Origin: an uncultured Bacteroidota bacterium
Lineage (GTDB): Bacteria; Bacteroidota; Bacteroidia; Bacteroidales; GWA2-32-17
Reading direction: 5' to 3'
Assembly: GCA_903872185.1 (NCBI GenBank)
Contig: CAIQJL010000270.1
Coordinates: 1 to 32,854 of the forward strand
DNA: 32,854 nucleotides
The notes under the pieces are model-generated. The model was not told where the DNA came from, searched no databases, and was given only the letters and a program-made list of their open reading frames with translations. Within the stretch, counting starts at the first letter, position 1. Every line of letters begins with the position of its first letter. Below are positions 9,162-32,485 of this stretch, in pieces. A program made the translations under genes and the position numbers.

Positions 9162-10988
9162 ATGAGGAAGAATTTGAGGTGGGCTTTTTGTTTTTTGATT
9201 ATTGTTATTTCAATTGAAAGCTGCAAGGATACACACACGCACGACTATATTTCAGCTGATTGTAAAGACTTATTTGATTCAAATAAATATTCTGAGATTT
9301 TAAAAAATAATTTTATTAACTCATCTGATTCTGCATCAATATGTTTTACTGAACTAAATAATTTCGATACTTTAAAAATATTTTATTCTAAAAGAAATTA
9401 TAAATCAGTATGGTTTTCTGAAAGCATTGATTTCAAAATTGTTGATTCTATTTTAAATTTCTTCAATAATTCATATACCCATGGTTTAAAAACCAACTGG
9501 TATTACGGAGATGTCATTTTATCAAAAATAGAAAAATTAAAATCTGTAAAAATAAATTGCGATAGTATTTATCAGTTATTAAGCGAAATAGATATACTCT
9601 TATCGAATGCATTGATTGATTATTCTAATCATTTAAATCATGGTTTTTTTAATCCCCTTGAAAATTACGATAAATGTTACTTTCTATCACTTAATAAAAG
9701 AGATTCATCACAATTCAATAAAATTTTTAATCCCGATTCAGTTTTAACTTATTTAAATACAATTCAACCAAATGGAACAGATTATAAAAAACTTCAAAGT
9801 CAGTATATAAAATTATTAAATTTAAAATGGGATAGTATTCCTCCCGCAGATACTCCTAAAATATGTATTGGCGACTCAAATAAAGTCTTAAAGTATATAG
9901 CTAACAGGTTAATTGTTACGAAAGAATTGGATAGCACTTTTACAAATTCTAGTTTTAATATTTACGATACTACTCTTAAAAAAGCAATTATCCGTTTTCA
10001 AAGCGAGCATGGTTTATTACCTGATGGCGTAATTGGAAAAAATACGATTGTGCAAATGAATATTTCAGCAAAAGATAGAGCTATTCAGATTGCAGTAAAT
10101 TTAGAGAGATTAAGATGGAACAGTTTTAATTATCCGGCAAAGCATTTAAAAATTAATATCCCTGAATTTATGTTATACTCCTATAATGCCGATACTTTTA
10201 AGTTGGCATTAAAAGTTTGCTGTGGCGAAAAAAAGCCTGGTAACTATAACGAAAGGATGAAAAAGTATATTAAAACTCATAAAATTCAAGATAGACCACC
10301 AAACCATGAGACACCAATATTTCAATCAAAAATTTCACATCTAGTATTGAATCCAGATTGGCTTGTACCAACAAATATTGTTCAAAAAGAATTGTATTAT
10401 AACTTTATTAAAGATCCTTTTTATTTAAGAGACCACGAATACAAGGTTTACAGAGACAATATTGAAGTAAATCCTGACAGTATTAATTGGAAAAAATACG
10501 ATCCTAATCACATACCATTTAGAATTAAACAAAATCCAGGAGAAATAAATGCTTTAGGGAAAATTAAATTCGTTTTCTTTAATCCTTATGATGTATTTTT
10601 ACACGATACTCCTACTAAAAATGCTTTCGAAAGAGCATATAGAGCAGTTAGTCACGGCTGCATAAGAGTTGAAGAACCATTAAAATTAGTAAAGCTATTA
10701 TTAGATGACAAGAAATGGGAGCTAGATGATATTAGAATGGCTATAGGCCTTGAACCTGAAGATAAAAAAGATAAAAAGAAGTTCAAAAAAAGAATGGAAG
10801 ATTTTAAAGAATGGAAAGAGCTTGAAGAAAAAGACAGCGTTAAGCTTGAAACAAAAACGATTTTCTTCAAAAAACAAATTCCAATAGTTATAAATTACTT
10901 TACCGCTTTTATTGATACCAATGGTTTCCTTCAATTCAGGGACGACCTATACAAAAGAGACTTACAAATAATAAATTTATTAAAATAG
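9162..10988 (+). CDS. L,D-transpeptidase lipoprotein (YcbB/LdtD-like, YkuD domain)
   Basis: A 608-residue protein close in length to E. coli LdtD (615). The N-terminal signal ends in a lipobox-like SIESC with Cys21, suggesting a lipoprotein facing the periplasm. A scaffold region (about 40-240) precedes a peptidoglycan-binding domain (about 265-300; AIIRFQSEHGLLPDGVIGKN) and a YkuD catalytic domain (about 335-530). The active-site motif SHGCIRVEEP gives His498 and Cys500. These enzymes make 3-3 cross-links between meso-diaminopimelate residues of peptidoglycan. The lysine-rich tail after the catalytic domain is ordinary for Bacteroidota members. Two copies of the self-complementary decamer AATAATTATT (9122-9131 and 9147-9156) lie directly upstream of the ATG, but I see no TAnnTTTG element. 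The gene stands alone. Confidence 0.93.
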   Translation: MRKNLRWAFCFLIIVISIESCKDTHTHDYISADCKDLFDSNKYSEILKNNFINSSDSASICFTELNNFDTLKIFYSKRNYKSVWFSESIDFKIVDSILNFFNNSYTHGLKTNWYYGDVILSKIEKLKSVKINCDSIYQLLSEIDILLSNALIDYSNHLNHGFFNPLENYDKCYFLSLNKRDSSQFNKIFNPDSVLTYLNTIQPNGTDYKKLQSQYIKLLNLKWDSIPPADTPKICIGDSNKVLKYIANRLIVTKELDSTFTNSSFNIYDTTLKKAIIRFQSEHGLLPDGVIGKNTIVQMNISAKDRAIQIAVNLERLRWNSFNYPAKHLKINIPEFMLYSYNADTFKLALKVCCGEKKPGNYNERMKKYIKTHKIQDRPPNHETPIFQSKISHLVLNPDWLVPTNIVQKELYYNFIKDPFYLRDHEYKVYRDNIEVNPDSINWKKYDPNHIPFRIKQNPGEINALGKIKFVFFNPYDVFLHDTPTKNAFERAYRAVSHGCIRVEEPLKLVKLLLDDKKWELDDIRMAIGLEPEDKKDKKKFKKRMEDFKEWKELEEKDSVKLETKTIFFKKQIPIVINYFTAFIDTNGFLQFRDDLYKRDLQIINLLK

Positions 10989-13945: not shown

Positions 13946-13953
13946 TAGCTTTG
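13946..13953 (+). promoter_or_regulatory. Bacteroidota -7 element (TAGCTTTG) that decides the dacB start
   Basis: TAGCTTTG matches TAnnTTTG and overlaps the TTG (13951) chosen by the ORF track, so transcription should begin after that codon. This supports the ATG at 13999 as the true start. The -33 region would fall inside the rhomboid coding sequence and has no TTTG match. Confidence 0.65.
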
Positions 13954-13998
13954 TTGCAAATTACTAAAAGCCCGGTGTTAAAAAAAATAAATTTTAGA

Positions 13999-15474
13999 AT
14001 GTATAAAACAGCTTTTTTTTTATTTATTTCATTTATTTTAAATAATGTTATTTATGCTCAAAAAGCTATAAATGAGCAAAAAACAGACTTCAATAAAGCT
14101 ATAAAAGAATTTATTTTAGATTCTGATTTATTAAACTCATCAATTAGCTTTTATGCTATAGATTTAAATACCGACGAAGAAATTGGTAAAATTAATCCGG
14201 AATTGAGACTTTCTCCGGCTTCAACAATGAAATTATTTACAACCGCAGCTGCACTTGAAATTCTTGGCGAAGAAAAAACATTTAAAACAAAAATAGGATA
14301 TAGTGGAGCTATTAATGAAAGTGGCTTTTTAAATGGAAATATTATAATTAAAGGAGGTGGCGATCCTTGTTTTATGAGTCATAATTTTAATTCAACTTAC
14401 TATAATCCTGAAATTTTATCAAAGATTATATCTGAAATTATAAAGTCCGGAATTAAAAAAATCAACGGATCAATAGTAGGAAATGCAAGTTATTACTCTG
14501 ATAATTCGGCGCCATCAACATGGATTTTAGCTGATGTTGCAAATTATTATGGTGCATCCCCATCGGCTCTTTCAATTTTAGATAATGAATATAAACTATT
14601 TTTTAATACCGGGTTAAAATCAAATGACAGTACCTTTATTATTAAAAAGGAACCCGAAATTCCATTTATGGAATTAGAGAATATTGTAAAAACTGATAAC
14701 GTTTCTGGTGATCAATCAATAATATATGGAGGTCAGTTTGACAATTACAGAATTGCAACAGGAAAGCTACCAATAAATAAAACAAATTTTGAAGTAAAAG
14801 GATCTACCTCAAATCCCCCATTGTTAGCAGCCGAACTATTAAAAAAAGAATTAACAAAAAACGGGATAATTGTTATGGATTCTTCAATTGCAGTGCCTGG
14901 GCTAAAATTTCAAAAAATAATTAATGAAGATTACAAATACATTTATGAAATAGAATCGCCAAGATTAAAAGATATTATTTATTATACTAATATTAAAAGC
15001 ATAAACCTTTATGCTGAACATTTGTTACGACAGATTGGTGTTACTAAAAATGGAAATGGAAGTAATGCCTCAGGCATCGATGAAATAAATAATTTCTGGT
15101 TAAAAACAACTGGCAAATTGTTAATGTATGATGGGAGTGGGCTTTCACGTTTTAATGCAGTATCTGCAAAACAATTAGTTCAAGTGTTAAGTTATATGAA
15201 AAAGACTAGTAAGAATTTCAATTCCTTTTATAATTCACTTCCGGTAGCCTCAAGAAGTGGAAGTTTAAGTGGAATGTTTTCTGGTAGTTTTGCAGAAAAC
15301 AACATGCGTGCAAAAAGTGGCTATATGACTGGCGTTAGGAGTTATGCCGGTTATGTTAAAACAAAATCCTCAAAAGAAATAGCTTTTGCAATAATTATAA
15401 ATAATTATTCGTCAAGCCCTTCGGTAGTAAAGAGCAAAATAGAGCAATTTTTGATACAACTTTCTAACAATTAA
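13999..15474 (+). CDS. dacB: D-alanyl-D-alanine carboxypeptidase/endopeptidase, PBP4 type (peptidase S13)
   Basis: A 491-residue exported penicillin-binding protein starting at the ATG 48 bases inside the ORF-track entry; the signal peptide is then MYKTAFFLFISFILNNVIYA. The three active-site motifs are in order: SxxK as STMK (Ser75, Lys78), SxN as SIN in TNIKSINLYAEHLLR, and KTG as KSG in RAKSGYMTG. A long insertion between the first two motifs (about residues 105-300) is characteristic of class C PBP4 proteins. The enzyme trims the terminal D-Ala of stem peptides and cleaves 4-3 cross-links, complementing the nearby L,D-transpeptidase. It is divergent from the rhomboid gene and followed by a MORN-repeat lipoprotein gene 49 bases later. 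Confidence 0.94.
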   Translation: MYKTAFFLFISFILNNVIYAQKAINEQKTDFNKAIKEFILDSDLLNSSISFYAIDLNTDEEIGKINPELRLSPASTMKLFTTAAALEILGEEKTFKTKIGYSGAINESGFLNGNIIIKGGGDPCFMSHNFNSTYYNPEILSKIISEIIKSGIKKINGSIVGNASYYSDNSAPSTWILADVANYYGASPSALSILDNEYKLFFNTGLKSNDSTFIIKKEPEIPFMELENIVKTDNVSGDQSIIYGGQFDNYRIATGKLPINKTNFEVKGSTSNPPLLAAELLKKELTKNGIIVMDSSIAVPGLKFQKIINEDYKYIYEIESPRLKDIIYYTNIKSINLYAEHLLRQIGVTKNGNGSNASGIDEINNFWLKTTGKLLMYDGSGLSRFNAVSAKQLVQVLSYMKKTSKNFNSFYNSLPVASRSGSLSGMFSGSFAENNMRAKSGYMTGVRSYAGYVKTKSSKEIAFAIIINNYSSSPSVVKSKIEQFLIQLSNN

Positions 15475-17192: not shown

Positions 17193-18428
17193 TTACTGCT
17201 TTACCAATTTCTTTACTAAAACATTATCATTATTAAAAACCTTAACAACGTACACACCTTTAGGCAAATTATTAATATTAACTTCTGTTTTTGCTGAGAA
17301 TAATTGCTGTTCAATTAACTGTTGGCCATCAATATCACTTATTGTTAATATTAACTTTGAAATTAAAAAAATTGATGGTAATTCAATAAAAACATTATTG
17401 TTTGCTGGATTGGGATAAAAATTAATATTTTGAATTTTAGTTTTCTCCGGAATAGAACTTACTCCTCCGTTTGTGGTTTTTAAAATTGTGCCATTATTTC
17501 CAACAATAAACCCAGTATTTGAATTTGTAAAAAAAACTGAATTCAATACCTTATTAGAAGCAATATTATATATAGAATTAAAAGTATTTCCGCCATCATT
17601 TGTTTTCAATATCACACTTTCCAAAAATATCCCTATCCAACCATTATAATTATTACCAATAACATAACCAGTATCAATTTCAGTAAAAAAAAATGAAGAT
17701 GTTATGTATGCAAGATTGTTTTGTTTCAATATCCAAGAATTACCGCCATCAATTGTTTTAATAAAACTATTATAGCCACCCAATGCATAACCAATATTAG
17801 AATTAGAAAAAAATAATGAATTACAAATACCATAAAGTGGGCTTGGAATAGGAATCCAATTTGTACCACCGTTTATTGTCCTATAAATAGTATCTGCACT
17901 ACCTGCAAAACCAGTATCTTTTGATGTAAAGTATAAAGATTTTATATACTGATATTGATACTGACCTAATGAATAATTTTCAGTCCAATTAATTCCTCCA
18001 TCAATTGTTTTAATTATTTTACCAGTATTATTTATTTTACCAGCAACAAATCCTGTATCGGTATTTATAAAAAACACAGTATAATAATCACCAATATTGC
18101 TGTTTTGCGGAACCCACAAAGCACCACCGTTTGAAGTTTTTAATATTGTTCCAGTATCTCCAACTGCCCATCCAGTATGTGAATTAACAAAAAATACTTT
18201 TTTTAAATTTTGAGATGTATTACTTATTTGAGATATCCAGGTATTTCCACTATCAACTGTCTTTAATATTGTACCGGCAGCACCAACAGTAAAACCAGTA
18301 TCAGAAGTTGGAAAATATACCGAATATAAATCTTTTGTTGTAGGTATATTGTTAATATATTGCCATTGAGCATTTACAAGACATAAAATACTTAGATTAA
18401 TAAAAAATGTTAGTAATATTTTTTTCAT
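17193..18428 (-). CDS. YCF48-like seven-repeat beta-propeller protein with T9SS sorting domain (copy 1)
   Basis: A 411-residue secreted protein: signal peptide to about residue 20 (LCLVNAQ), seven propeller repeats marked by GTILKT-DGG-W cores (for example GAAGTILKTVDSGNTW, IIKTIDGGINW, YRTINGGTNW), then a T9SS type A domain (NFYPNPANNNVFIEL ... LPKGVYVVKVF ... LVKKLVKQ). The propeller resembles Ycf48/Hcf136, a photosystem II assembly factor in phototrophs; in secreted Bacteroidota proteins it is a structural or binding module, so no photosynthetic role is implied. It follows its paralog with only two bases between them, on the same strand. Residues 33-102 and 290-411 are much more alike between copies than the middle. 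Confidence 0.88.
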   Translation of the reverse strand: MKKILLTFFINLSILCLVNAQWQYINNIPTTKDLYSVYFPTSDTGFTVGAAGTILKTVDSGNTWISQISNTSQNLKKVFFVNSHTGWAVGDTGTILKTSNGGALWVPQNSNIGDYYTVFFINTDTGFVAGKINNTGKIIKTIDGGINWTENYSLGQYQYQYIKSLYFTSKDTGFAGSADTIYRTINGGTNWIPIPSPLYGICNSLFFSNSNIGYALGGYNSFIKTIDGGNSWILKQNNLAYITSSFFFTEIDTGYVIGNNYNGWIGIFLESVILKTNDGGNTFNSIYNIASNKVLNSVFFTNSNTGFIVGNNGTILKTTNGGVSSIPEKTKIQNINFYPNPANNNVFIELPSIFLISKLILTISDIDGQQLIEQQLFSAKTEVNINNLPKGVYVVKVFNNDNVLVKKLVKQ

Positions 18429-18430
18429 TT

Positions 18431-19654
18431 TTATTGCTTTACCAATTTTTTTACTAAAACATTATTATTATTAAATACCTTAACAACGTATACACCTTTA
18501 GGTAAATTAGTTATATTAACTTCTGTTTTTTCAAAAGAAATTTGTTGCTCAATTATTTGTCTGCCATTAATATCACTTATTGTTAATATTAACTTTGAAA
18601 TTAAAAAATTTGATGGAATTTCAATAAAAACATTATTGTTTGCTGGATTGGGATAAATATTAATATTTTGAATTTTAGTATTCTCCTGAATAGTAGTTTC
18701 TCCTCCGTTTGAAGTTTTTAATATAGTACCATTACTACCAACAATAAACCCAGTATTTGAATTTGTGAAAAATATTGAATTCAACATTTTTGATGAAGCT
18801 ATATTTACAAGAGAATCCCAAGTAATACCTCCGTCGATGGTTTTGAGTATTACACTTCCCATAAAAATAGGCATTGCATCGGGAGACCAATTACCACCTA
18901 CAATATACCCTATATTCATACCAGTAAAATAAAGCGATGGCATATAGTTAGCCAGAACATCTTGTAATGATGTCCATGTTTCACCTCCATTAGTAGTTTT
19001 CACAACAGTATTTATTCCTGTGCCAAATCCAATGTTTGCATTTATAAAATTAAATGATAAAATGTTTCCATTATAAGGTTCAAAAGATTTTAGAGTCCAA
19101 TTATTTCCTCCATTTGTGGTAACAAGAATAGTATCGTAAATTCCACCAACAAAACCGGTATCATTATTCTTAAAATAAGTATAATATGGAGCATAATTAG
19201 TATTACTTGTTTTAATTACCCAATTATTTCCTCCATCAGTAGTTTTAATAATTGTACCATAACTTCCAGATATATAACCTGTATCTATATTAATAAAACA
19301 AATCGACTGATAATTAAATGTATTAAAGTTTTGCAAACTCCATAAATTTCCTCCGTTTGAAGTTTTTAATATTGTTCCAGAATCTCCAACTGCCCATCCA
19401 GTAAGTGAATTAACAAATAACACCTTTTGTAAATTTTGAGATGTATTACTTATTTGAGATATCCAGGTATTTCCACTATCAACTGTCTTCAATATTGTAC
19501 CCGCAGAACCAACAGTAAAACCAGTATCGGAAGTTGGAAAATACACAGAATATAAATTATTTGTTGTTGGTATATTACTAACATACTGCCATTGAGCATT
19601 AATAAAACTTAATATGCTAATGTTAAGAATAAAAACCAGTAATGTTTTTTTCAT
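18431..19654 (-). CDS. YCF48-like seven-repeat beta-propeller protein with T9SS sorting domain (copy 2)
   Basis: A 407-residue secreted paralog of the following gene and the first gene of the two-gene unit. It has a signal peptide to about residue 20 (LSFINAQ), seven GTILKT-NGG-W repeats, and a T9SS domain with the same ending (LVKKLVKQ). The first two repeats and the C-terminal domain are close to copy 1, whereas repeats three to six differ in sequence and local length. A TACATTTG promoter element lies 33 bp upstream of the ATG, so transcription of both copies probably starts here. The pair arose by tandem duplication; the ligand is unknown. Confidence 0.88.
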   Translation of the reverse strand: MKKTLLVFILNISILSFINAQWQYVSNIPTTNNLYSVYFPTSDTGFTVGSAGTILKTVDSGNTWISQISNTSQNLQKVLFVNSLTGWAVGDSGTILKTSNGGNLWSLQNFNTFNYQSICFINIDTGYISGSYGTIIKTTDGGNNWVIKTSNTNYAPYYTYFKNNDTGFVGGIYDTILVTTNGGNNWTLKSFEPYNGNILSFNFINANIGFGTGINTVVKTTNGGETWTSLQDVLANYMPSLYFTGMNIGYIVGGNWSPDAMPIFMGSVILKTIDGGITWDSLVNIASSKMLNSIFFTNSNTGFIVGSNGTILKTSNGGETTIQENTKIQNINIYPNPANNNVFIEIPSNFLISKLILTISDINGRQIIEQQISFEKTEVNITNLPKGVYVVKVFNNNNVLVKKLVKQ

Positions 19655-24624: not shown

Positions 24625-24657
24625 TTTGCTCACAATCGCTCAATTTTGCTAAGTTTG
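24625..24657 (+). promoter_or_regulatory. Complete Bacteroidota promoter (TTTG - 21 nt - TAAGTTTG)
   Basis: TTTG at 24625-24628 and TAAGTTTG at 24650-24657 are 21 nt apart, matching both consensus elements and spacing. The TTG start of the downstream gene is 17 bp past the -7 box, giving a leader of only about ten bases. Confidence 0.8.
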
Positions 24658-24674
24658 CTATATAATTTAAACCA

Positions 24675-26123
24675 TTGAATAATCAAAGTTCAGAACAAAA
24701 ATTAAAAGATTTGCTTTTTAAAGCAAAATCGATTGAAGTTACTAATATTCAAGAATTACCACCATCTGGATCGTACAGAAGATACTTTCGTTTATTTACT
24801 GTAAATGAAACTTTTATAGGTGCATTTAATCCTGATCCAAAAGAAAATCTTGCATTTATTCACTTTACAAAACATTTTTTAAACTGCAATTTAAATGTAC
24901 CCGAAATAATTGCAGAAGATATTGATAATCATATTTATATTCTATCTGATTTAGGCGATACAACTCTATTCTCATTTTTAGAAACAAAAAGAGTAAAAGG
25001 CGAATTTTCAGATGATATTGTTAGTACTTATAAGAAAGTACTTGATGATTTAACTGAATTTCAATTTGTAGGTGGAAATGAATTGGATTATTCGTTCTGT
25101 TATCCTCGCTCAAGCTTTGATAAACAATCAATGATGTGGGATTTAAATTACTTTAAATACTACTTTTTAAAACTTGCTAAAATTCCTTTTGACGAACAAA
25201 AATTAGAAGATGATTTTGAGGTTTTTGTAAATTATTTATCGCAAGCTGAAAGTAATTATTTTTTGTATCGCGATTTTCAGTCAAGAAATATAATGTTAAA
25301 GGATAATGAAGTATTTTTTATTGATTATCAAGGAGGTAGAAAAGGACCATTATATTATGATGTTGCTTCATTACTTTATGATGCAAAAGCAAATATTCCA
25401 CAAAATAAAAGAGAAGAATTACTTGATTATTATATTAGTAAAGTAAAAAGTATTATTCCTGTAAATGAAAAAGAGTTTAAAGGAATGTATTATTGTTTTG
25501 TACTAATCCGTATTATGCAGGCTATGGGAGCATACGGATTTAGAGGTTTCTACGAAAAGAAAGAACACTTTTTAAAGAGTATACCTTTTGCATTGCAAAA
25601 TTTAGATTGGTTATTGGAAAATGTTGAGATTCCTATTAATATTCCAGCATTAAAAGCAGTATTACAATCATTAACTACTTCAGAAGAATTAAAAAAATAT
25701 AACGAAAAAGTTTTCCCAGAAAGCTCGCTTTGTGTACAAATAAACAGCTTCTCATTTTTAAAAGAATTTCCTGAAGATAAATCAGGTAATGGTGGTGGAT
25801 TTGTATTCGATTGCAGAGCCTTACCTAATCCGGGAAGATATTCAGAATATGAAAATTTTAGTGGGTTAGATTCAAAAGTCTCAGATTTTTTAAATAATGA
25901 TGAAGAAGTAAAACATTTTTTACAAAATGTTATTAAAATTTCGGAACAAAGTGTAGAAAAATATATTTCAAGAAATTTTAATAATCTTCAAATCTCATTT
26001 GGATGTACTGGCGGTCAACACAGATCGGTATTTTGTGCAGAAAAACTTAAAGCACATTTACAATCCAAATATAATTTAAAGATTGAAATAGAACATACTA
26101 ATAGAATTAATTGGAAAAAATAA
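24675..26123 (+). CDS. APH-family sugar kinase (AmgK-like) fused to RapZ C-terminal domain
   Basis: A 482-residue fusion. Residues about 1-330 form an aminoglycoside-phosphotransferase-type kinase: a loop SGSYRRYFRLF (31-41), the catalytic YRDFQSRNIM (Asp200, Asn205) and the metal-binding FIDYQGGRKGPLYYDVASLL (Asp217). Residues about 350-482 match the C-terminal domain of RapZ: FVFDCRALPNPGRY and FGCTGGQHRSVFCAEKL (442-458). In E. coli that domain senses glucosamine-6-phosphate and controls GlmS levels. The next gene is a MurU-like nucleotidyltransferase, matching the AmgK-MurU pair that converts MurNAc to UDP-MurNAc, so an amino-sugar kinase with a sensing domain is the likely role. The TTG start is chosen because no ATG precedes the conserved region and the promoter is 17 bp away. 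Substrate is inferred. Confidence 0.87.
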   Translation: MNNQSSEQKLKDLLFKAKSIEVTNIQELPPSGSYRRYFRLFTVNETFIGAFNPDPKENLAFIHFTKHFLNCNLNVPEIIAEDIDNHIYILSDLGDTTLFSFLETKRVKGEFSDDIVSTYKKVLDDLTEFQFVGGNELDYSFCYPRSSFDKQSMMWDLNYFKYYFLKLAKIPFDEQKLEDDFEVFVNYLSQAESNYFLYRDFQSRNIMLKDNEVFFIDYQGGRKGPLYYDVASLLYDAKANIPQNKREELLDYYISKVKSIIPVNEKEFKGMYYCFVLIRIMQAMGAYGFRGFYEKKEHFLKSIPFALQNLDWLLENVEIPINIPALKAVLQSLTTSEELKKYNEKVFPESSLCVQINSFSFLKEFPEDKSGNGGGFVFDCRALPNPGRYSEYENFSGLDSKVSDFLNNDEEVKHFLQNVIKISEQSVEKYISRNFNNLQISFGCTGGQHRSVFCAEKLKAHLQSKYNLKIEIEHTNRINWKK

Positions 26124-26884
26124 TGGCAAGTAAAGGTAAAGCGATGATATTTGCTGCCGGTTTAGGAACTAGGCTTCATCCTATTACCTTATTAAAACCA
26201 AAGGCCTTGGCCGAAATAGATGGTATTACGCTTTTGGAATATGCTATTAGAAATTTAAAACATTTTGGGTTTACACAAATAATTGTTAACGTACATCATT
26301 TTGCCGATCAGGTAATTGAATTCCTTAAATCAAAAAATAATTTCGGAATAGAAATTTCAATTTCCGATGAGCGTAACAAATTGCTAGATACTGGTGGAGG
26401 ACTTAAAAATGCATCTCATTTTTTTAATGACAACAAACCATTTTTAGTTTATAATGTTGATGTACTTACTGATTTAAATCTTCGAAAACTATATAATAAT
26501 CATATTGAAAGTGGAGCTATAGCAACATTAGCAGTAAGAAACAGAAAAACTTCAAGATATTTTCTTTTTGATCAGAACGAATCGCTTTGTGGTTGGAAAA
26601 ATATGGCTACAAATGAGATTAAAATTAAATGTACATCAATTTCAAAACTTCGTCCATTCGCATTTAGTGGTATTCAGGTAATCAATAATGATTTATTTGA
26701 CATGATGACTACCTATGAAGAATGCTTTTCTATTACAGATGTATATCTAAACTTATGCTCTAATTATAAGATAAAAGCATACAATCATGATAACAGCTTT
26801 TGGATGGACTTAGGTACTGTTGAGCACATTAACCAAGCAGATGAATTGCTATCGAAGTACAATTTTTTGCTTATGCGAGAATAA
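26123..26884 (+). CDS. Sugar-phosphate nucleotidyltransferase (MurU-like)
   Basis: A 253-residue NTP transferase. The nucleotide-binding signature is FAAGLGTRLHPITLLKPKAL, followed by PFLVYNVDVLTDLN with the metal-binding Asp, and a C-terminal SFWMDLGTVEHI typical of the family. It would join a sugar-1-phosphate to UMP or GMP from UTP or GTP. The ATG at 26123 shares its A with the TAA of the kinase-RapZ gene (TAATG), so translation is coupled; the ORF-track TTG twelve bases upstream is rejected. Pairing with an APH-type kinase mirrors AmgK-MurU of cell-wall recycling, so UDP-MurNAc formation is the leading hypothesis. A GDP-sugar or UDP-GlcNAc product is the alternative. Confidence 0.88.
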   Translation: MASKGKAMIFAAGLGTRLHPITLLKPKALAEIDGITLLEYAIRNLKHFGFTQIIVNVHHFADQVIEFLKSKNNFGIEISISDERNKLLDTGGGLKNASHFFNDNKPFLVYNVDVLTDLNLRKLYNNHIESGAIATLAVRNRKTSRYFLFDQNESLCGWKNMATNEIKIKCTSISKLRPFAFSGIQVINNDLFDMMTTYEECFSITDVYLNLCSNYKIKAYNHDNSFWMDLGTVEHINQADELLSKYNFLLMRE

Positions 26885-26980: not shown

Positions 26981-27331
26981 CTAAAGTTTATTAATGATAG
27001 AGGCAAGAATTCGTTTTAATTCATAAGATTCTTTAACCAAATAAGAATTTTGTTCTAATTCTCCAAGTTTTAGTTGTTGATGTAATCGTAGAAAATAAAT
27101 TGCTTCACGCATTTCTTTTAGTGAAATTCCAATTTTCATTTTAACATCTGGTCTTGTTGGTGAGCCTTATGATTCCTCATAATTTGCTCCACTTGAAGTA
27201 GCTGCTCTAATAAGTTGGAGTTTAATATCCATTGTTTCAATGGAATTATTTACGGTTCTAAGATATAAAATAACATCAACTGCAAATTTTAAAAGTCTTT
27301 CGCAAAGATCATTTTCTTTTCTTATTTCCAT
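26981..27331 (-). pseudogene. Four-helix-bundle protein (23S rRNA intervening-sequence type), broken by a stop
   Basis: Not in the ORF track. Read from the ATG at 27331 the frame runs 116 codons to TAG at 26981 with a single internal TAA (codon 55, 27169-27167). Before the break: RKENDLCERLLKFAVDVI and LQLIRAATSSGANYEES; after it: GSPTRPDVKMKIGISLKEMR and EAIYFLRLHQ. This is the TIGR02436-type four-helix-bundle family, related to proteins encoded in 23S rRNA intervening sequences and to Avd of diversity-generating retroelements. Intact relatives have Gln-Gly just after the NYEE motif, so one CAA-to-TAA change explains the stop; no frameshift is seen. The gene sits between inverted repeats with nothing else inside, suggesting it travels as a small element. 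Confidence 0.87.
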
Positions 27332-29014: not shown

Positions 29015-31186
29015 TTAATAATTGATATTTGCTTTATTCTCAGGTAAACAAATCAATTTTTGAGTATATACAATTTTATTTAACTCTATTTTAAGAAAAT
29101 AACAGCCAGGGGTTAGCTTTGCTGTAATATCACTTAAAAGAATTTCATTTACTTTTGGTATAGTTTCAAATTCTTTGCTAATTATTTTTTTACCAGAAAT
29201 ATCAATTATAGAAATGTTTGCAAATTTAGAATCTAAAGAATTAAATCGAATTATTGCATTTTCTATAAAAGGATTTGGAAATACAATAAATCCAGTTGAA
29301 GGAAGTGTGTTTTCTTCTATTCCAGTAGTTGAAGACACATAATCAATTGCCCAACCTGACGCAGTAATATCAGTATTTGTAAAGAATTTAATACAAACAA
29401 TTGGCGCTTGTATTGTTAATGATCCAGTAGGTGGGTTTAAATGATTAAAAGTAGCTATAGAACTTCCACTTGAAAAGTTGTTTTTATAAATCTGAACATA
29501 ATCACCAAGATTATTTGTTGCCAGATTAAATTCAGTAAAGCTTAAAGTTATAGATTGGGCATTTGCTGGTTTTATTACCCAACGACAATTTGTAGCATTA
29601 TTATAATCACAAATTCCACTTCCATCAGAAACATTTCCACTTTGATTTGTTACTGTATCGGTCTGGCAATATTTTACTGAATAGTTAGCTAAAAATCCAT
29701 CAGAAACTTCGCTATTATCAGACTTAAATGTTACAAATAAATTTTTAGAACTCGACTCTAATAAAGTAGGAGATAGGTTTTCTGAAGTTAAAGGAAAATT
29801 CATACTATTATAACTTGCCAATAGCTGCGATTGAGCATTACTACCATCATAAACATTTAGTGTATCACCATTTGATAAACCAAATTGATTAAAACCTAGC
29901 TTAAGCTTTATACCACAATCCGGATTAAGTAGCCATGAACAATCGGAATTGTTATTGTAAAGTTTTATACTACTACCATCTGAAAATGTACCGTTGCTTC
30001 CAACTATTTCTTTATAACCCGAACAAAATGTAGGATAAGTGTAATTTATTGTATCTGGGTAAATATCAACAACTAATTCCTGACAAAGATTGAAATTATA
30101 ACCATTTGGATTTAATTGGTCTAGGTAGAAAAAACCATCCTGTGAACTTCCCCAACCCCAGTTAAAATGAAAGAAAGTATTTGACTGATAACCATCGCAA
30201 ACAAAAGCATGACCGCTAATATAAGTAGTATCTTCCCAGCCTGCATAATATAATGGTTTTTTTTGATCCAGATTTGCAATTATTATACTATCCCATGGTA
30301 AAGTTGTACTATCTCTAAAAATATATCTGGTTTGAGAACAATATTTAAAATAATTTTTGAATGAAAGAGCAGCATGGTGATTCCACATTCCTGAGCCACC
30401 TGGTCCATAATTCATATCTACTGAAACACCAATGTGAAATAACAACTTAGCTATTGCTAGATTAGTAAAAGTTAAATGATTTGCCATTGCATCCCAATCA
30501 TAAGTGCTATTTGAAAAATCTGCAGAAATAACACCATAATCAGGATGATTATATGTGTATGAACTAAAACCAGTTTGTGGCCATCTGTGGTAAAACATAA
30601 TTTGTCCCATTGCAGTTGCAACGCACCCTGCATATGTATGACCACCCGGACCAGCAGCATCGGCAGGACATAATTCATTATAAAATTTATCTTGATTCCA
30701 TGTTGAAGTAAGGAGAGGAGCAATAGCTTTTTCTTTTAGAACGTTGTTATTATTTTTTTGATAATACTTCCATGCATTATCAATTGTACTATTAGTTTGT
30801 TTTAAATTTGTAACTGCACTATAAATCTGTTTTTTATAATTATTCATCCAAAAAATAAAATTTGGATTTTCCTGATCTTTAGAATAATTACTCTCAAACG
30901 AATAGCCCAATATTGGAAAAACATTTCGTTGAGCCGAAACAATAACAAAACCATTAGGCTCAAAATTGAAAATATAATATAAAGGTATATTGTCTGTTGA
31001 ATTTATTAATTCATAATTAATAATATTTGTTTCATTTGACTTTACCGAGAAAAATGTTTTTGCTTTTTCTAAATAAAAATTTTTGGCAATTAGTTGTAAA
31101 GTGTCAGTGGAAATAGGCTGGGCGTATATCTGCAATTTGTTTATTGAACAAAACAGTAGTATGAGAAAAGCAATTTTTCGAATCAT
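29015..31186 (-). CDS. Secreted C10 (streptopain-like) cysteine protease with two CUB-like domains and T9SS sorting domain
   Basis: A 723-residue exported protease. Order: signal peptide (to about 22, QIYAQ); propeptide of the Spi type (about 25-150, with PNGFVIVSAQRNVFPILGYS); C10 catalytic domain (about 155-390); two CUB-like beta-sandwich domains (about 393-505 and 507-625; DGSSIKLYNNNSDCSWLL and YNNATNCRWVIKPANAQ); and a T9SS sorting domain. Catalytic Cys188 is in YAGCVATAMGQIM and His326 in SGHAFVCDGY, with FNWGWGSSQDGFF after it as in SpeB, PrtT and interpain. The enzyme is likely made as a zymogen and works outside the cell on protein substrates. A second cysteine protease gene lies directly upstream, but a hairpin terminator separates them. 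Confidence 0.93.
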   Translation of the reverse strand: MIRKIAFLILLFCSINKLQIYAQPISTDTLQLIAKNFYLEKAKTFFSVKSNETNIINYELINSTDNIPLYYIFNFEPNGFVIVSAQRNVFPILGYSFESNYSKDQENPNFIFWMNNYKKQIYSAVTNLKQTNSTIDNAWKYYQKNNNNVLKEKAIAPLLTSTWNQDKFYNELCPADAAGPGGHTYAGCVATAMGQIMFYHRWPQTGFSSYTYNHPDYGVISADFSNSTYDWDAMANHLTFTNLAIAKLLFHIGVSVDMNYGPGGSGMWNHHAALSFKNYFKYCSQTRYIFRDSTTLPWDSIIIANLDQKKPLYYAGWEDTTYISGHAFVCDGYQSNTFFHFNWGWGSSQDGFFYLDQLNPNGYNFNLCQELVVDIYPDTINYTYPTFCSGYKEIVGSNGTFSDGSSIKLYNNNSDCSWLLNPDCGIKLKLGFNQFGLSNGDTLNVYDGSNAQSQLLASYNSMNFPLTSENLSPTLLESSSKNLFVTFKSDNSEVSDGFLANYSVKYCQTDTVTNQSGNVSDGSGICDYNNATNCRWVIKPANAQSITLSFTEFNLATNNLGDYVQIYKNNFSSGSSIATFNHLNPPTGSLTIQAPIVCIKFFTNTDITASGWAIDYVSSTTGIEENTLPSTGFIVFPNPFIENAIIRFNSLDSKFANISIIDISGKKIISKEFETIPKVNEILLSDITAKLTPGCYFLKIELNKIVYTQKLICLPENKANINY

Positions 31187-31246: not shown

Positions 31247-32485
31247 TTATTTAAACTTTTTAAGAAGATCTTTGACAGCATCTTTATGAACTGTAAAATT
31301 CATCATCTTAAGTTTAACATAGTCCTCGCTGAAAAAATAATAACCAAATTCTTTTGCATTAACATCATTGTTTCTTGAGCCAGAACCGGAATCTTTTATC
31401 ATATACCACCGTTGTCCTTTATAATCAACATATCCAACTAAATGTATTCCATGATCATCTGTAGTTGTTTTGTTTGAAAAACGAAACTGACGAGCTTCAT
31501 CATTAATAGAACTAGATGGGATATCAAAAGAAGGCACTATAGCACATTGTGTTTCTGAATCAAAACCAGCTTCTGAAACATCACCGCCAATTGCAACTGT
31601 GTAGCCACTTTCAATACATTTACGAAGAGTAGCTGTATATTCATCAAGTGGAACATTATAATAATCTTTGCTTCTCCACCAGTTATCGTCAACATCATAT
31701 AGTACTTTCTGATAAAATGGTTCCTGCATAATAGAAAGAATATCAATATAATCGTCAGGAATAATTTTCACAACATCACTTAAATATTGTTTTGGTGTAT
31801 ATTGTTTTCCATTAACAGTAACCGATGTAGGTGGTTCGCCAATATAATGATTCATAATAGATTTAATAGTAGAAATAACTTCTTCTTCATTCCATGCATT
31901 TGATAATTTCACAGAATTTAAATACGAATCCATTTCTGCCTTCATTGCCTCATGACTATGATATTTACGACAATTATTTAATCCGTTATATGCTTCATAT
32001 GGAATTGCACCATATAATTTAAATATTCTTGTAACAGCATTTGCTTCACTTCCTTCACCAAAAACTGAAGTACCACGAGTTTTAATATATTCTCTTGCTT
32101 TTTCAACATATTCCCAGTATGCAATAAAAATCTCGCTTAGTTTAATTTTTTGATTTGTTAAACGAAATACTTCTGATTCAAAATATGAAATTGTTGAATA
32201 TGACCAACAAGTGCCTGCATTTCCCTGTGAAATAGGAGAGTTATGCCATTGAGTTTTATATAAATCAATTTTATTTGGCAAGTCTTTTCCTTTTAAATCA
32301 GCTTTAAACCTTTGAACTTGTTTAGGTGGAGCAGCATTTTCTTCTACATTCCTAACATCTTTCATTATTACATTTTGATAATAGCCCGGTTGATACAATT
32401 TAAATATAGCTTTATCTTTATTATCCTGCGCCTGAATAATTGTAATTACAAAAAATGTAATTGCCAGTAGAACAATTTTTTTCAT
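31247..32485 (-). CDS. C1-family cysteine peptidase (bleomycin hydrolase/aminopeptidase C-like)
   Basis: A 412-residue papain-fold peptidase with a signal peptide (MKKIVLLAITFFVITIIQAQ), so it acts outside the cytoplasm, unlike typical PepC. The catalytic Cys93 is in SQGNAGTCWSYSTISYFESE and the His is in DDHGIHLVGYVDYKGQRWYM (about 349). The long helical insertion after the first motif (KLSEIFIAYWEYVEKAREYI) is the bleomycin-hydrolase hallmark. The position of the papain Asn (usually NSWG) reads KDSGSGS, with Asp in place of Asn and no Trp. This may be normal for secreted Bacteroidota members or alter activity. The gene has its own terminator, so it is not simply cotranscribed with the C10 protease downstream. 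Confidence 0.9.
   Translation of the reverse strand: MKKIVLLAITFFVITIIQAQDNKDKAIFKLYQPGYYQNVIMKDVRNVEENAAPPKQVQRFKADLKGKDLPNKIDLYKTQWHNSPISQGNAGTCWSYSTISYFESEVFRLTNQKIKLSEIFIAYWEYVEKAREYIKTRGTSVFGEGSEANAVTRIFKLYGAIPYEAYNGLNNCRKYHSHEAMKAEMDSYLNSVKLSNAWNEEEVISTIKSIMNHYIGEPPTSVTVNGKQYTPKQYLSDVVKIIPDDYIDILSIMQEPFYQKVLYDVDDNWWRSKDYYNVPLDEYTATLRKCIESGYTVAIGGDVSEAGFDSETQCAIVPSFDIPSSSINDEARQFRFSNKTTTDDHGIHLVGYVDYKGQRWYMIKDSGSGSRNNDVNAKEFGYYFFSEDYVKLKMMNFTVHKDAVKDLLKKFK

Follow-up and report, generated by a model that had tools for sequence, protein, structure and literature searches.

A kinase fused to a RapZ C-terminal domain and paired with a MurU-like nucleotidyltransferase: a candidate MurNAc-salvage locus of Bacteroidota

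In a 32,854-nucleotide stretch of DNA from an uncultured Bacteroidota bacterium (contig CAIQJL010000270.1; hereafter the window), an AmgK-like kinase is joined in one reading frame to the C-terminal domain of RapZ (RapZ_C) and followed by a MurU-like sugar-1-phosphate nucleotidyltransferase (NT). Kinase and NT most probably salvage MurNAc to UDP-MurNAc. The full reading, in which RapZ_C in addition serves as the MurNAc-6-phosphate phosphatase in the manner of MupP, has in our view about an even chance of being correct. It would place the locus in a pathway that starts with AnmK, which converts 1,6-anhydroMurNAc to MurNAc-6-phosphate, and that avoids MurQ, the etherase degrading MurNAc-6-phosphate to GlcNAc-6-phosphate. 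In Pseudomonas and Caulobacter, where MurQ is missing, MupP, AmgK and MurU take its place (PMC5371407, PMC13046382). The pathway is known already, as are the families of kinase and NT and the domain RapZ_C. No paper linking RapZ_C to a MurNAc-salvage kinase was found in the literature searched, which covered few subscription journals, nor does that literature describe the combination, its spread, its near-exclusivity with MurQ or a phosphatase-kinase interpretation, although domain databases may well list the architecture.

Results

Organization of the locus

The fused protein is encoded on the plus strand at 24675..26123 (482 aa, TTG start), as supported by the ORF, by Pfam (APH and RapZ_C) and NCBIfam matches and by an AlphaFold model with a mean pLDDT of 91.7 and a pTM of 0.71. 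Its stop codon (26121-26123) overlaps the ATG of the NT (26123-26125) in a TAATG, and the NT extends over 26123..26884 (plus strand, 253 aa). The fusion, its sequence motifs and the overlapping NT had all been named in a preliminary description of this DNA and were confirmed. An assembly error can be dismissed, since independent assemblies hold closely similar fusions (91% amino acid identity in L028, 72% in L029). A complete promoter had been claimed as well, and a Bacteroidota-type promoter-like element, TTTG-N21-TAAGTTTG, indeed exists at 24625..24657 (plus strand; pattern search of the window) in what is a plausible promoter position upstream of the fusion ORF; as the pattern occurs twice in the window, with 2.04 occurrences expected by chance, it was dropped as evidence.

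Two more peptidoglycan genes lie in the window, encoding an L,D-transpeptidase (YkuD, Scaffold and PG_binding_1 domains; 9162-10988) and an S13 D-Ala-D-Ala carboxypeptidase (13951-15474). In the gap downstream of the NT, an ORF for a small helical bundle may survive as a remnant, interrupted by an in-frame stop (26990-27330, minus strand) and located beside the GC-rich stretch CCGCCGCGGCGG. The minus strand further encodes two Ycf48-like (PSII_BNR) proteins in tandem, each with a type IX secretion tail (17193-19654), and, beside a papain-like protein, a secreted C10 peptidase that combines a Spi inhibitor prodomain with CUB domains and a type IX secretion tail (29015-31186 and 31247-32485).

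Kinase and nucleotidyltransferase

The kinase domain covers residues 31-303 (24765..25583, plus strand) and was recognized by Pfam APH (E=1.5e-8, residues 33-253), by the NCBIfam AmgK model NF045759 and by its fold. The AmgK model was the best among the curated kinase models, with 63.5 bits against an equivalog cut-off of 550, and an assignment as AmgK equivalog was rejected on this score. The nearest solved structure was 3csv both by sequence and by fold; when the whole fusion was used as query, which spans both domains, kinases dominated the matches. Conservation was read from an alignment of 102 fused copies. In the catalytic loop YRDFQSRN (residues 198-205; 25266..25289, plus strand) R199, D200, R204 and N205 are invariant in 102/102 copies, as are D217 and Q219 of the metal-site motif DYQ (25323..25331, plus strand; within IDYQGG, residues 216-221), so that the catalytic Asp (D200), the Asn (N205) and the metal-binding Asp (D217) of an APH fold are all in place.

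For the NT, the best curated model was NCBIfam MurU (NF045761) with 129 bits against an equivalog cut-off of 250, and here too the equivalog assignment was rejected. Its structure model (pLDDT 93.5) shows a minimal nucleotidyltransferase fold nearest to MurU, with MurU structures at ranks 1-3 of the fold search (4y7t, 4y7u, 4y7v) and PaMurU (8hhd) at ranks 6-7. An NT of the same family is found directly downstream in 44 of the 96 assessable fused loci, mostly at a distance of no more than 35 bases, and a strong NT orthologue was present in all 12 genomes tested, several of them without an adjacent copy. Apart from the NT, no neighbour is conserved across lineages. Prolixibacteraceae loci, for example, carry YebC, DUF218, an M28 peptidase and others without an evident pathway, and the HydE-like gene upstream of the fusion in the window is divergent and not a conserved neighbour. 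Taken together, profiles, folds, synteny and the co-occurrence described below support the AmgK/MurU-like assignment and the context of amino-sugar recycling that had been suggested earlier.

The RapZ_C domain

RapZ_C comprises residues 354-475 (25734..26099, plus strand), matches PF22740 above its gathering cut-off (E=3.4e-32) and also the RapZ structures 5o5s and 5o5o. Its loop CTGGQHRS (residues 444-451; 26004..26027, plus strand) is of the phosphate-binding C-x5-R-S type and lies in the AlphaFold model between a strand (437-444) and a helix (450-465). Extended to GCTGGQHRS (443-451), it contains the C-x2-G-x2-R-S signature of cysteine-dependent phosphatase loops. Throughout the 102 fused copies C444, T445, G446, G447, H449, R450 and S451 are invariant, together with D379, R381, N385 and the glycines 373-375. 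D379 (25809..25811, plus strand) corresponds to D182 of E. coli RapZ and is a candidate general acid, and the three glycines (25791..25799, plus strand) belong to a short insert missing from E. coli RapZ.

RapZ_C thus shares with RapZ/YvcJ the GCTGGxHRS pocket, with the equivalents of C247, T248, G249, H252 and R253 kept, as well as those of D182, R184 and N188. It differs from them in the GGG insert, in the replacement of the pocket residue H190 by Gly in 102/102 copies, in the loss of most RNA contacts and of the basic C-terminal tail, and in its fusion to a kinase without the P-loop N-terminal domain. Of the RNA contacts, K194, R211, R238 and K251 are mostly gone from the 102-copy alignment, along with the tail; at the positions of K170 and R196 most copies have a basic residue, but the copy in the window has lost both charges. 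The RapZ model NF003828 aligns to the fusion only from profile position 139 and reaches 99.9 bits against a cut-off of 244, which led to rejection of the fusion as a RapZ equivalog. The earlier suggestion that the RNA-adapter half of RapZ is missing was therefore right. Pfam found no HAD domain in the fusion, and RapZ_C would be at most a functional analogue of MupP.

Spread and splitting of the fusion

A scan of 84,980 species genomes led to 166 confirmed stretches encoding relatives, and the labels of the best 80 of the 166 include Bacteroidales, Prolixibacteraceae, Saprospiraceae, Cyclobacteriaceae, Ignavibacteriales, Neomarinimicrobiota and Calditrichota. Bacteroidota carry the fusion widely, a cultured example being Draconibacterium orientale (L050), and contigs assigned by their labels to Ignavibacteria, Neomarinimicrobiota and Calditrichota have it as well. 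From the phylum of the window, 248 genomes were sampled evenly (the first sample); 27 of them contain RapZ_C, as a single copy each. Most of these copies belong to fusions, in frames of 478-524 aa, five sit in short frames, and none lies in a frame of the size of full-length RapZ. When the 248 genomes were searched with a profile built from the kinase half, close orthologues appeared in 28, namely all 27 carriers of RapZ_C and one further genome (G009). RapZ_C is accompanied by the kinase in 27/27 genomes, including those in which the two are split or unlinked. The exception, G009, encodes its close kinase orthologue with an adjacent NT (L139:4090-5798) in a genome without RapZ_C, AnmK, MurQ and NamZ.

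Separate adjacent genes for a kinase of about 340 aa, a RapZ_C of 133-135 aa and the NT were observed in four loci (L011, L025-L027), and in one genome (G180) the three lie on three different contigs. In a maximum-likelihood tree, family f5 has its split kinases nested among fused kinases (99/99), and that of L011 is placed elsewhere; the split forms consequently look derived, and this at least twice, although finer placements are unsure because of long branches on some rows.

Co-occurrence with AnmK and MurQ

In the first sample the AmgK-like kinase is present in 68 of the 69 genomes without MurQ and in 13 of the 179 with MurQ. Such counts are to be read with the kinship of the genomes in mind, as these are not independent and 53 of the 68 represent one family, f18. 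Restriction to AnmK-bearing genomes, by which f18 drops out, left 8 genomes with RapZ_C and without MurQ, 11 with both, none with neither and 154 with MurQ only. RapZ_C is hence found in 8/8 genomes with AnmK but no MurQ, from five families, compared with 11/165 genomes with AnmK and MurQ (Fisher p=4e-9, kinship ignored). Among kinase-bearing genomes, RapZ_C is present in 19/19 with AnmK and in 8/62 without it.

A second sample consisted of genomes of the class, of which only those new with respect to the first sample were counted. Here MurQ is missing in 8/9 genomes with RapZ_C and in 8/163 without it, most of the latter eight being incomplete or very small assemblies. Five genomes combine AnmK with the lack of both MurQ and RapZ_C; completeness is 60-86% in four of them, and the fifth reaches 92%, with 5% contamination. 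Almost every well-assembled genome with AnmK and without MurQ carries RapZ_C. A partial control for ancestry is provided by swaps within three families (f46, f69 and f90), in each of which members with RapZ_C and without MurQ stand beside members with MurQ and without RapZ_C. The genome of the window itself has AnmK, MurQ and the fusion and probably possesses both MurNAc routes.

A lineage with the kinase and without RapZ_C

The kinase occurs without RapZ_C, AnmK and MurQ in the 53 genomes of family f18 and in G009. The two f18 loci that were read show a kinase, a MurU-like NT, the exo-muramidase NamZ and a sodium:solute symporter (Pfam families in L142). In L142:4515-9107, and also in L143, this apparent operon encodes a divergent AmgK-like kinase and an NT with an added hexapeptide domain, and it is a candidate MurNAc uptake-and-salvage operon. 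With NamZ and a symporter in the kinase operon, free MurNAc is to be expected in f18, so that dephosphorylation would be unneeded. NamZ is also encoded in nearly all genomes with RapZ_C, though not in that of the window. The contrast with f18, which has neither AnmK nor RapZ_C, and with it the 19/19 against 8/62 given above, favour a phosphatase role of RapZ_C but, resting on two lineages, are suggestive only.

Discussion

From the domain composition, the conserved loop and the distribution of AnmK and MurQ, the locus may be understood as a compact anabolic MurNAc-salvage (MurU) pathway. MurNAc-6-phosphate would come from AnmK, whose gene lies outside the locus, and where AnmK is present and MurQ absent this compound must shed its phosphate before a 1-kinase can act. 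RapZ_C would remove the 6-phosphate by means of its cysteine-dependent C-x5-R-S loop, with C444 as nucleophile, R450 as phosphate ligand and D379 as the candidate general acid, and so fill the place that MupP, a HAD enzyme, has in Pseudomonas. Next, the AmgK-like half of the fusion would put a phosphate on C1 of the sugar, and the MurU-like enzyme encoded alongside would form UDP-MurNAc. We infer the phosphatase chemistry, MurNAc-6-phosphate as its substrate, C1 as the position phosphorylated and the use of UTP. More tentatively, and somewhat less likely to hold than not, RapZ_C could stand for a family of cysteine-dependent aminosugar-6-phosphate phosphatases, with the fused protein of Bacteroidota and their relatives shifting the phosphate of MurNAc from C6 to C1 and the RNA-regulating RapZ of enterobacteria perhaps having re-purposed the same active site.

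The locus resembles the AnmK-MupP-AmgK-MurU route (PMC5371407, PMC13046382) in that an AmgK-like kinase is paired with a MurU-like enzyme, that it turns up where MurQ is missing and that AnmK is often present; it differs in that the proposed phosphatase is a kinase-fused RapZ_C instead of a HAD-type MupP and in scores far under the equivalog cut-offs. It would work like MupP-AmgK-MurU while standing, by these cut-offs, outside the AmgK, MurU and RapZ equivalog families. Within the Bacteroidota, an AmgK/MurU route from MurNAc to UDP-MurNAc is part of the salvage system of Tannerella forsythia (MurT, MurK, MurQ, AmgK, MurU), which is reported to lack AnmK and to import free MurNAc (PMC7670621, PMC5790795).

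A phosphatase function of E. coli RapZ has already been considered in print: its pocket was described by the RapZ group as resembling a tyrosine phosphatase loop, with hydrolysis of GlcN6P under investigation (PMC7199280), and the C247S variant is inactive, its thiol having been suggested to be possibly catalytic (PMC9841335). The pocket binds sulphate or malonate via H190, T248, G249, H252 and R253 (PMC5737377). RapZ_C shares with C-x5-R phosphatases of the PTP type the strand-helix loop with invariant Cys and Arg, but the C-terminal domain of RapZ is nearer to a subdomain of phosphofructokinase than to PTP folds (PMC5737377), which counts against the phosphatase reading. The same is true for the missed AmgK and MurU cut-offs, for MurQ in the genome of the window and for the 11 genomes that have RapZ_C without AnmK (8 in the first sample and 3 more in the second). 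In the latter, one possibility for the source of MurNAc-6-phosphate is a MurNAc 6-kinase like MurK of Tannerella (PMC5790795).

The preliminary description had proposed that RapZ_C gates a recycling kinase according to amino-sugar supply, or reports on that supply. On such a view RapZ_C would have no catalytic part and would regulate the MurNAc 1-kinase by sensing GlcN6P or another amino-sugar phosphate; kinase and NT would still salvage MurNAc, and some HAD enzyme would remove the 6-phosphate. None of the tests made here supports sensing, and we regard this explanation as rather unlikely, although a regulatory role of RapZ_C is possible. In its favour, the C-terminal domain of E. coli RapZ binds GlcN6P (PMC7073468), the pocket does not vary in its phosphate part, a fusion to an enzyme would suit allostery, and the genomes checked do encode HAD proteins. 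However, ten HADs from two genomes (G005 and G180) all stayed below the strict cut-off of the curated MupP model, the best with 63 bits against 359; HADs being many and the model strict, a divergent HAD phosphatase or MupP may be present instead. A sensor does not predict RapZ_C in all genomes of the first sample with AnmK and without MurQ, nor does it fit well with the exchange of H190 for Gly, with a full C-x5-R-S loop with its Cys, or with the persistence of RapZ_C as a separate and even unlinked gene. Together with the lack of RapZ_C in the lineage with NamZ and symporter, these observations make a sensor less economical than an enzyme. Both functions are not mutually exclusive, since a slow phosphatase can also sense.

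It is still less probable, if worth keeping in mind, that kinase and NT serve another amino sugar such as GlcNAc or a sugar of surface glycans, with RapZ_C acting on its 6-phosphate. The scores under the AmgK and MurU cut-offs, the annotation of AmgK as acting on GlcNAc too and the genomes with RapZ_C but no AnmK would agree with this, whereas the near-exclusive relation with MurQ, an enzyme specific for MurNAc-6-phosphate, NamZ beside the related kinase in f18 and MurU as the best fold of the NT point to MurNAc. That RapZ_C still regulates by binding RNA, and so ties MurNAc salvage to the control of mRNAs or sRNAs, appears very improbable: the C-terminal domain of E. coli RapZ alone does bind sRNA (PMC5737377) and two of the basic positions are kept in most copies, but the other contacts and the tail are mostly lost, the window copy lacks even the K170 and R196 charges, and full-length RapZ was not seen in the 248 genomes of the phylum sample. 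Hardly credible is a neutral juxtaposition of two domains with unrelated functions; the fused arrangement has been lost at least twice, as such a juxtaposition would allow, but the pocket is strictly conserved and the co-occurrence remains obligate after separation.

If RapZ_C is the MurNAc-6-phosphate phosphatase, the missing step of MurNAc salvage would be supplied for many Bacteroidota and neighbouring phyla, and the question left by the RapZ authors, whether a tyrosine-phosphatase-like pocket hydrolyses sugar phosphates, would gain an RNA-free setting. The genes could then be annotated better and would mark those bacteria that are likely to recycle MurNAc directly to UDP-MurNAc.
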